A stretch of DNA of 35,270 nucleotides from Candidatus Parcubacteria bacterium (lineage in GTDB: Bacteria; Patescibacteriota; Minisyncoccia; Phycocordibacterales; JAACPR01). Positions 6,056-32,262 of the stretch are shown here, piece after piece (position 1 is the first letter of the stretch; the number at the start of each line of letters is the position of its first letter). The notes beneath the pieces were generated by a model. It was given only the letters and a program-made list of their open reading frames with translations. It did not search any database and had not been told where the DNA came from. The DNA lies in the NCBI GenBank assembly GCA_009995365.1, contig JAACPR010000009.1, positions 1 through 35,270 on the forward strand, given 5' to 3'. A program made the translations under genes and the position numbers.

Positions 6056-6077
6056 CAGCGACCTACTCGGGTCGCTG
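6056..6077 (+). terminator. hairpin downstream of mreB (candidate terminator)
   Basis: CAGCGACC tactcg GGTCGCTG followed by TTCTCGTTT (weak U tract). Confidence 0.5.
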
Positions 6078-6095: not shown

Positions 6096-6214
6096 AAACC
6101 ACTAACAACATTATCTCCCTCGTTCCCGTCCTCGACACTGCTTGCGTCAAGGCATAAAGCCATTGACACCGCAGGTCTGCGGAGGAACTCGATAGAAAAT
6201 GTTGTTAGTGGTTT
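6096..6214 (+). repeat. family-A structured repeat, copy A1
   Basis: 17-bp perfect inverted repeat AAACCACTAACAACATT (6096-6112) / AATGTTGTTAGTGGTTT (6198-6214) around an 85-bp core closely similar to 27182-27262. Confidence 0.88.
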
Positions 6215-6270: not shown

Positions 6271-6371
6271 ACCACCTAAAAATACTTCTTTTCGAGTTTC
6301 TTTGCAGGACTTCCTTTAAAAATATAATTGAGTCCGAAACCAAAACGAGAGAAGAAGTATTTTGGGGTGGT
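6271..6371 (-). repeat. family-B structured repeat, copy B1
   Basis: 21-nt arms ACCACCTAAAAATACTTCTTT / GAAGAAGTATTTTGGGGTGGT (18 Watson-Crick plus 2 G-U) around a core homologous, in reverse complement, to 9574-9636. Confidence 0.86.
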
Positions 6372-9060: not shown

Positions 9061-9555
9061 ATGGCTATTACCAAAGATAAAAAGAAAGAAATAGTTGAAA
9101 AGATCAAGACTATTACAGGAAAAGATTCTGTAGTCTTTATTAATTTCACAGGTCTTTCTGGAAATGAAACAGTGGATATGCGAAGCAAGCTTCGTGAAGC
9201 CGGTGTTTCTTATTATGTTGCAAAGAAAACTTTGGTGAAGAGAGCTTTTGACGAATCAGACGTAAAAGGTGATTTCCCAGAACTATCAGGAGAAATTGCT
9301 GTTGTCTACGCCGACGATTTGACTGCTCCAGCTCGTGAAATTTTTACTTTCCAAAAATCAACAGAAGGAAAAGTTGAAATTCAAGCAGGAGTTTTCGAAG
9401 GAAAATTCTTATCAAAAGTTGAGATGGAAGAGATTGCATTAATTCCTGGACATGACACATTGAAGGGAATGTTTGTAAATGTAATCAACTCTCCAATCCA
9501 AGGCTTTGTAATGTCACTTAAAGCAATTGCTGAAAAGCAAGAAGCAAAAGCTTAA
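9061..9555 (+). CDS. rplJ: 50S ribosomal protein L10
   Basis: MAITKDKKKEIVEKIKTITGKDSVVFINFTGLSGNETVDMRSKLREAGVSYYVAKKTLVKRAF. Confidence 0.95.
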   Translation: MAITKDKKKEIVEKIKTITGKDSVVFINFTGLSGNETVDMRSKLREAGVSYYVAKKTLVKRAFDESDVKGDFPELSGEIAVVYADDLTAPAREIFTFQKSTEGKVEIQAGVFEGKFLSKVEMEEIALIPGHDTLKGMFVNVINSPIQGFVMSLKAIAEKQEAKA

Positions 9556-9557
9556 CA

Positions 9558-9653
9558 AGTTTTTTGTATATTTCTCTCTCAAATTGGTTTCGGACTCCGT
9601 TATATTTAAAAGGAAGTCCTGCAAAGATTTTCGATAGAAAATACAAAAAAACT
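9558..9653 (+). repeat. family-B structured repeat, copy B2 (between rplJ and rplL)
   Basis: Arms AGTTTTTTGTATATTTC / GAAAATACAAAAAAACT around a core matching B1: TTGGTTTCGGACTC..TTATATTT..AAAGGAAGTCCTGCAAAGA. Confidence 0.86.
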
Positions 9654-9680: not shown

Positions 9681-10196
9681 ATGTCAGACGAACAAAAAAA
9701 AGATGAAAATGTAGAAGCTGCTGAAGAACAAAAAGAAGAAGCTCAAGCTCCTGCAGAAGAATCAAAAGAGGAAACTAAAGAAGAGGCGCCAGCTGAAGAA
9801 GCAAAAGACGAAGGTGCTGATGTTGAAGTTCCAGAAAAATTCAAATCAATCGTTGAATCAATTGAAACAATGAGCGTTCTTGATTTAAACGAACTTGTTA
9901 AATTACTAGAAAAGAAATTCGGTGTTAGCGCTGTTGCTGCTGCCGCTCCAGCTGCAGGTGCTGATGCAGGTGCCGCTGAAGAGAAAAGCGATTTCATTAT
10001 CCACCTAGCTGATTTCGGTGCTCAAAAAATTGCCGTTATCAAGGTTGTTAAAGAAGTTGCAGGATTAGGTCTTAAAGAGGCTAAAGATCTTGTAGAATCT
10101 GCTCCAGCTGATATCAAATCAGGAGTAAAACCTGAAGAAGCTGAAGAGATTAAAGCAAAACTTGAAGAAGCAGGTGCTAAAGTTGAACTTAAATAA
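9681..10196 (+). CDS. rplL: 50S ribosomal protein L7/L12 with N-terminal acidic extension
   Basis: [30 protein letters not shown]...[34 protein letters not shown]. Confidence 0.95.
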
Positions 10197-22123: not shown

Positions 22124-22150
22124 ATCTTAAGATAACAAAAAAATCTAAAT

Positions 22151-27163: not shown

Positions 27164-27278
27164 GCATCAAAAAATATTATCTCTCTCGTTCCCGTCCTCG
27201 ACCTGCTTTTGTAAAGGTCTAAAGACCTATGACAACGCAGGTCTGCGGAGGAATTCGATAGATAATATTTTTTGATGC
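27164..27278 (+). repeat. family-A structured repeat, copy A2
   Basis: 18-bp perfect inverted repeat GCATCAAAAAATATTATC / GATAATATTTTTTGATGC around a core homologous to A1; left arm begins 2 nt after the murF stop codon. Confidence 0.88.
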
Positions 27279-31691: not shown

Positions 31692-32186
31692 TTACCAATT
31701 AATTCTTGGTAGGCTAACCGGGGGTGTCTTTACGACAAATTCGTCTTTTGCAATCGCTTTGAAGACAATTTCTTCATTGCGTTTGCAATGGGCTTCTGCC
31801 AACTCCCAAATATTTCGCGGGATTTGGTTTTCCCTTAGGTCAACCATAGTGTAACCTTCAGGAATGAGATGTCTACCACCACGGGAATTGCGGATGTATC
31901 CCCAAAACCACTGGTCTCCGATATTTCTACCGTTGAGTCCAACCAACATATTGTCAGTGTCTTTTTGGTAGGCAAACATGAGACCGTAGTCAGACTCTCT
32001 CCACTCGATATTTGGAAGATATCCATTATGATGAGTAACTTCACCTGTATTGGTGTTGAGATATGAGTGAAAAGTCTCTGAGTGTATTGGATTGATGATA
32101 TCATTTTTGATGACACCTTCAGTTTTGAATTCGTAGAAACTTGCGGTTGCAAGTATGGTAACGATTATAGTTATAATGTGCTTCAT
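31692..32186 (-). CDS. secreted hypothetical protein (164 aa)
   Basis: N-terminal hydrophobic signal MKHIITIIVTILATASF; consensus promoter upstream on the minus strand. Confidence 0.7.
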   Translation of the reverse strand: MKHIITIIVTILATASFYEFKTEGVIKNDIINPIHSETFHSYLNTNTGEVTHHNGYLPNIEWRESDYGLMFAYQKDTDNMLVGLNGRNIGDQWFWGYIRNSRGGRHLIPEGYTMVDLRENQIPRNIWELAEAHCKRNEEIVFKAIAKDEFVVKTPPVSLPRINW

Positions 32187-32206
32187 TTTAATCTTGGGTT
32201 GAGTTT

Positions 32207-32262
32207 ATACTTTTAGGCTTAGAAAGCTCTATTAAAATAAAGCACTTTAAGCCAAAAAGTAT
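32207..32262 (-). repeat. 15-bp inverted repeat in the 5' UTR of the 31692-32186 gene
   Basis: ATACTTTTAGGCTTA (32207-32221) / TAAGCCAAAAAGTAT (32248-32262), 14 of 15 paired. Confidence 0.75.

Follow-up and report, generated by a model that had tools for sequence, protein, structure and literature searches.

What kind of element keeps a conserved, covarying core and yet a different perfect stem at every site? The question is raised by two hairpins, A1 and A2, in the window, i.e. the whole stretch of 35,270 nucleotides analysed here, from contig JAACPR010000009.1 of a Candidatus Parcubacteria bacterium (Table 1).

A conserved core within private arms

The first-pass annotation had described a conserved core enclosed by unrelated, perfectly self-complementary arms, and this is what we find at both A1 and A2, with 17 bp of perfect pairing in each; at A2 the pairing runs on for one or two pairs into the edge of the core. 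The conservation of the core was confirmed as described, but its true ends in the window's own genome (G000, 758 kb), CTCYCTCG... and ...CTCGATAG, lie slightly inside the limits first given. Compared with dinucleotide shuffles, the RNA folds of A1 and A2 reach z = -8.7 to -10.1, and 0 of 200 shuffles were equally stable. Long-armed hairpins of this size occur four times in the window, including A1, A2 and one family C copy, versus 0 or 1 in order-1 Markov versions. Another inverted repeat at 32174-32249, with arms of about 19 nt and a loop of 38 nt, is close to the start of a minus-strand ORF and by eye is unlike families A, B and C.

Table 1. Positions of the hairpin features in the window
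Feature	Position	Strand	Remarks
A1 5' arm, locus-specific	6096..6112	+	AAACCACTAACAACATT; perfect reverse complement of 6198-6214
A1 family A conserved core	6115..6195	+	81 nt, common to 5 other full genome copies; model R1 111 bits
A1 3' arm	6198..6214	+	pairs with 5' arm, 17 bp perfect
A2 5' arm	27164..27180	+	GCATCAAAAAATATTAT; begins 1 nt past the murF stop codon
A2 family A conserved core	27181..27261	+	compensatory apical stem
A2 3' arm	27262..27278	+	17 bp perfect with 5' arm
Family C copy	6271..6371	-	arms ACCACCTAAAAATACTT.. / ..AAGTATTTTGGGGTGGT; family A end motifs in core; inverted repeat, fold, hairpin scan
Decayed family C copy	9558..9653	+	inverted repeats with C copy at 6283-6352; fold

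A search of the window's own genome revealed six full copies of the family A core (~81 nt), all with private arms of 14-20 bp, and five truncated ones, reduced to the 5' portion of the core (CTCTCTCGTTCCCGTCC...) and without the second arm. Three of the truncated copies are duplicates of a single composite made up of half a family A core followed by a family B hairpin, and the five represent only about three independent events. The search with a covariance model proposed in the first-pass annotation recovered further copies in two genomes of the same family, G002 and G003, and all the full ones have complementary arms. With a first model of the core, the counts were 5 for G002 and 14 for G003; a second, built from 24 copies, brought them to 6 and about 17, respectively (about 23 together). 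Strong matches to the core among 249 genomes of the order are confined to G000, G002 and G003, and a further genome of the same family, G001, has no copies. In G003 the core ends are TTTTTTCG and CTCAAAAA. Exact searches of viral contigs with the A core and with the D core described below gave no match.

Over 24 copies the core is a bulged hairpin with covariation: 97.6% of cells are paired, double-change cells number 31 versus 10 expected from shuffling, and sliding the partner by one column abolishes the signal. The compensatory difference in the apical hairpin between A1 and A2, pointed out at first sight of the sequence, is thus real and is one among several such changes. Outside the core, self-complementarity of the flanks is above all 60 shuffles in each of the 30 A- and C-type copies (nine of them in G000) from the three genomes. 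In the 16 nt next to the core (n=26), arms match at 81% within one copy versus 42% between copies, and the mean pairwise identity of 5' arms is 35% versus 80% for cores within a genome. Copies without complementary arms, or arms of fixed sequence, had been named as the findings that would speak against the pattern; all 30 full copies have arms that pair, and with a mean pairwise identity of 35% the arms are of no fixed sequence. Moreover, arm complementarity in G003 drops with rising divergence of the core (rho -0.58, p 0.03), as expected if the arms were perfect at birth.

The few copies that do share arms stem from duplication of a larger unit, namely, the composite of half-A and B, and L035/L036. 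The composite is ~250 nt long and includes the whole family B hairpin; it has at least three copies (L069, L070 and L073, on G000 C19, C23 and C18), its family B arms recur in a fourth copy, L071, and its upstream sequence is A/C-rich (AACACCCAACACCACCAC). L035 and L036 (G003 C23), which are 1.6 kb apart, are identical including their arms and about 25 nt of flank, implying that some spread occurs by duplication or conversion of the whole hairpin. At L014 (G003 C4:94-170), an A-type copy is apparently nested in an older, decayed A-type copy, the outer arms of which (CCACCACCTTGC..) are still visible.

Related cores and their distribution

The impression that the pattern recurs proved correct: it is found in every full copy in the three genomes, in a second family, C, that shares its ends with A, and in an independent core type elsewhere. 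Besides A, G000 carries families B and C. Family C has the end motifs of A (CTCTCTCGTT... / ...AACTCGATAG) and a different middle; one copy is found 57 nt from A1, and a decayed one separates the two ribosomal stalk genes, ORFs 9061-9555 and 9681-10196. In family B, whose ends are different, private arms are seen in one of five copies, and the remaining four have common arms as components of the composite. Further cores with private arms are present among the fetched loci, e.g. a 54-nt core that occurs twice in G267 with different arms.

Core D (CTGCGGAACTCGCTNCGCTCAGACAGTCCTCGG, 33 nt) was first found beside a diversity-generating-type (DGR) reverse transcriptase (RT) in G222 and contains the family A boxes TCCTCG and CTGCGGA with their order exchanged. 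Across GTDB species genomes, exact matches to it were located in 18 stretches, from Nomurabacteria, Taylorbacteria, Kaiserbacteria, Saccharibacteria and other Patescibacteria and, beyond these, from Lachnospiraceae, Spirochaetes, Pseudomonas, Halopseudomonas, Cellvibrionaceae and a Rhodobacteraceae MAG; searches of plasmids, phages and E. coli gave no match. Most of the D copies from Patescibacteria, Lachnospiraceae and Spirochaetes again have private, complementary flanks (e.g. 26 bp in Kaiserbacteria), and in gammaproteobacteria the flanks resemble a fixed larger palindrome. At the Pseudomonas-like loci L111, L113, L114, L118, L119, L123 and L125, the D core lies within a larger conserved palindrome (CCCTTCGGGTTCGCTGCGTTGCTC...) that looks like a fixed-arm repeat family.

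Insertion sites and the origin of the arms

With a probability of about one half, A1 and A2 are copies of a non-coding, non-autonomous miniature element, the private arms of which were made by fold-back template switching that copies the flank in inverted form. According to this model, the ~81-nt bulged hairpin core would be copied to new places, where DNA synthesis, having copied the core, would fold back on the hairpin and copy 15-35 nt of adjacent native DNA inverted. Each copy would end up capped within its own private, initially perfect stem, and later template switching between the arms could re-perfect them and might flip the core. We infer the fold-back copying step itself from arms that are complementary within and not between copies, with 30 of 30 exceeding shuffles, from their decay with core divergence, from truncated copies that are unable to form the hairpin and also lack the second arm, and from the insertion sites considered below.

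Orthologous sites indicate which arm is native, although the two can be told apart at only a few loci because the relatives are just ~70-78% identical. At the G003 copy next to rpsG, the 5' arm extends into the native end of rpsG, stop codon included, and the 3' arm holds an inverted copy of the rpsG end (TTTGYTTGGTAA); the rpsG ortholog in G002 has no element and no hairpin. At L019, a copy in G002, the gene end GCAAATAAAAACAC occurs three times, two of them direct and one inverted; in the flanks, which were aligned for inverted repeats, the direct repeat is on one side only. The orthologous site in G003 is empty and without a hairpin. Both loci support inverted duplication of the 5' flank, and the gene ends copied inverted into the 3' arm argue for fold-back copying.

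A further line of evidence comes from D hairpins inserted in frame within recJ (two copies, in G222, Nomurabacteria), dnaE (Taylorbacteria) and recG (Kaiserbacteria). The two recJ sites are 22 and 21 codons longer than in relatives (66 and 63 nt), with cores of 47 and ~45 nt and arms of 20 and ~23 nt, and dnaE is ~30 codons (90 nt) longer than in three of four same-genus relatives, with a core of 60 nt and an arm of 22-24 nt. These net lengths of 66, 63 and 90 nt compare with 67, ~68 and 82-84 nt for the core plus one arm, and the core plus two arms (87, ~91 and 104-108 nt) would be a poorer fit. By contrast, recG is 32 codons (96 nt) longer, with a core of 34 nt and an arm of 26 nt, and is nearer to the core plus two arms (86 nt) than to the core plus one (60 nt), which counts against fold-back copying. 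So does recJ site 1, where neither arm resembles the conserved native peptide of the relatives. Net insertions near the core plus one arm at three of the four sites within genes support fold-back copying, yet linkers tolerate indels, and the lengths are suggestive and not conclusive. The DnaE linker of the Taylorbacteria family (L159-L188) carries many different palindromic insertions across species and appears to be a tolerant hot spot.

The same sites bear on a different explanation, according to which the core inserts into the loop of an existing palindrome, typically an intrinsic terminator; the arms would then be the former terminator stem, and their private sequences would reflect the differences among terminators. 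Indeed, seven of the nine G000 copies have G-rich arms and a T-run closing the 3' arm, an A-tract/T-tract arrangement that could function as a terminator and that insertion into a terminator loop would likewise explain, which weighs against fold-back copying. Furthermore, a gene in the sense orientation has its stop codon 13-46 nt upstream of 13 of 28 copies, versus 3 copies with the opposite layout, in which a convergent gene ends on the other side, and similar terminators exist in G000 (e.g. AAAAAACCGCACA-TTTT-TGTGCGGTTTTTT at 22148). However, many G003 arms consist of A/T only and are not terminators, A1 lies past a separate terminator at 6056-6077, and arms of 17-36 bp are longer than typical terminator stems. 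Moreover, the rpsG and L019 orthologs have no hairpin, copies are found within coding genes where relatives have no palindrome, and the net insertion exceeds the core alone. We consider insertion into a pre-existing stem unlikely.

One orthologous site is filled in both G002 and G003 (L066/L068). Its outer flanks are conserved, the core is in opposite orientation, and the inner arms differ between the species while being complementary within each; the site has no match to a known RNA. Template switching between the arms of an inverted repeat reportedly homogenises the arms and inverts the spacer (PMC8604942), and it reportedly creates and maintains hairpins (PMC8794818). By analogy, L066/L068 may represent such arm homogenisation with spacer inversion, and a core inverted between orthologous sites is in line with fold-back copying; alternatively, two independent insertions may have occurred at one site. 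Differing arms that still pair would also be expected if the hairpin were a structured RNA gene or a regulatory element of 3' ends, its long closing stem of variable sequence being kept by selection rather than by copying. The covarying core and the frequency of sense-oriented copies after stop codons agree with such a role, but the compared copy positions in G002 and G003 are mostly not shared, decayed copies exist, an RNA role would not predict inverted copies of gene ends, D cores are in frame within proteins, and Rfam, searched with the gathering and with an E-value threshold, yields no family, only tRNA scoring above the gathering threshold in the window, with weak sub-threshold hits at A1. 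Selection on an RNA is the least probable of the explanations weighed here. For family A, no copy was found inside an undisturbed gene.

Collectively, a dispersed hairpin core combined with fold-back template switching that writes and repairs the private arms is the most economical account. More tentatively, and with less confidence than for A1 and A2 themselves, the copies may belong to a group of mobile hairpins, common throughout Patescibacteria and found also in other phyla, that multiplies through copying of a capped core and writes an inverted copy of the host flank at each landing, possibly by means of a DGR-related RT or by replication template switching alone. If so, inverted target duplication would be a transposition outcome undescribed for known elements; only the cap would be conserved and the stem written from local sequence each time, as opposed to the same inverted repeats in known small palindromic repeats. 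If fold-back copying is right, these elements would be natural reporters of template switching in bacteria, the origin of long, perfectly paired, locus-specific stems would be explained, and proteins of replication and repair in very small genomes would have gained new in-frame peptides. With its private arms, each insertion would carry a built-in mark of its age.

Known systems and candidate machinery

The first-pass annotation had judged the pattern to be unlike an ordinary IS, MITE or REP sequence, and we concur, since the arms are private and no Y1/RAYT transposase is present in the three element-carrying genomes. MITEs have the same terminal inverted repeats in all copies, together with a direct target duplication. 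Like MITEs and IS ends, the hairpins are short non-coding repeats with inverted repeats, but these differ at every locus (35% mean identity between copies), and assignment to MITEs by shared terminal inverted repeats was rejected. Rickettsia palindromic elements (RPEs) form ~150-bp families with a conserved peptide and are not known to have private arms. RPEs are in-frame palindromic insertions in protein genes without a known transposase (PMC10969869), comparable to core type D in recJ, dnaE and recG.

REPs are palindromes of 20-40 bp with an unpaired GTAG/CGTC tag, and GTAG REPs are associated with a Y1 transposase (PMC3733652). As in REP/RAYT systems (PMC3733652), small conserved hairpins lie mostly close downstream of genes and sometimes in frame in DNA replication and repair genes, including dnaE. 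Unlike REPs, they are lengthened by locus-specific arms of 15-35 bp and are not accompanied by a Y1 gene, and no conserved GTAG or CGTC is found at the core ends in G000 and G003. A Y1 transposase as the mover was likewise rejected, PF01797 being absent from G000, G002 and G003 and present, among same-family genomes, only in the copy-free G001. An intrinsic terminator (GC-rich stem, short loop and T-tract) is not a match, because the loop is an 81-nt folded core and several G003 arms are A/T only, notwithstanding the T-run in seven of nine G000 copies. The homogenised arms and inverted spacer of L066/L068 resemble quasipalindrome template switching, which is presented as a source of mutations in existing hairpins and not as part of a dispersed element family (PMC8604942, PMC8794818). 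Thus, the pattern is real and recurrent and is not a MITE or REP as defined in PMC3733652 and PMC10969869; REPs, MITEs and RPEs are analogues, not matches. In the open-licence PMC literature on CPR palindromes, DGR hairpins, Parcubacteria MITEs and inverted flank duplication, we found no description of such an element.

The target hairpin of DGRs has a GC-rich stem of 7-10 bp and a 4-nt GRNA loop, 4-34 bp after the VR (PMC3240598). It resembles the present elements in being a structure-dependent hairpin/cruciform with a stem of free sequence and a conserved cap, and DGR RT genes adjoin some copies; by contrast, the 33-81-nt cores occur genome-wide, away from VRs, and core and arms are far longer. 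DGRs were assigned by reading the sequence for TR, VR and an Avd-like ORF. At three DGR-type RT loci (G000 C6, G000 C19 and G003 C1), a hairpin copy is found about 0.2-0.7 kb downstream, always in the same orientation to the RT, whose transcript includes the core's minus strand, and both D copies of G222 are within ~2 kb of an RT. This neighbourhood is a lead towards retrotransposition, in which an RT, perhaps DGR-type with its transcript reading into the minus-strand copy, would prime on target DNA and copy the hairpin RNA, and the cDNA would self-prime and copy the flank into an inverted arm. Consistent with this scheme, RT and copies are both missing from G001, the only RT hit in G002 is weak and riddled with stops, and the truncated copies retain the end that would be copied first, although they amount to about three events. 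On the other hand, the core keeps its A- and T-runs from copy to copy and no signature of adenine mutagenesis is apparent, so that the mutation signature does not support a DGR RT as the copier. Furthermore, the third DGR of G000 has no family A or B hairpin downstream, and a scan of further RT loci across the order found a long-armed hairpin near only two or three of them, implying that such a hairpin is not a general part of DGRs. Retrotransposition is improbable as the source of the arms. By eye, L054:2700-5400 (G000 C6), L032 (G000 C19) and L048:1-2200 (G003 C1) show the same order, namely, a DGR cassette, directly after it either a RelB/RelE-like pair of toxin-antitoxin-like ORFs or a HicB-like ORF, and finally the hairpin.
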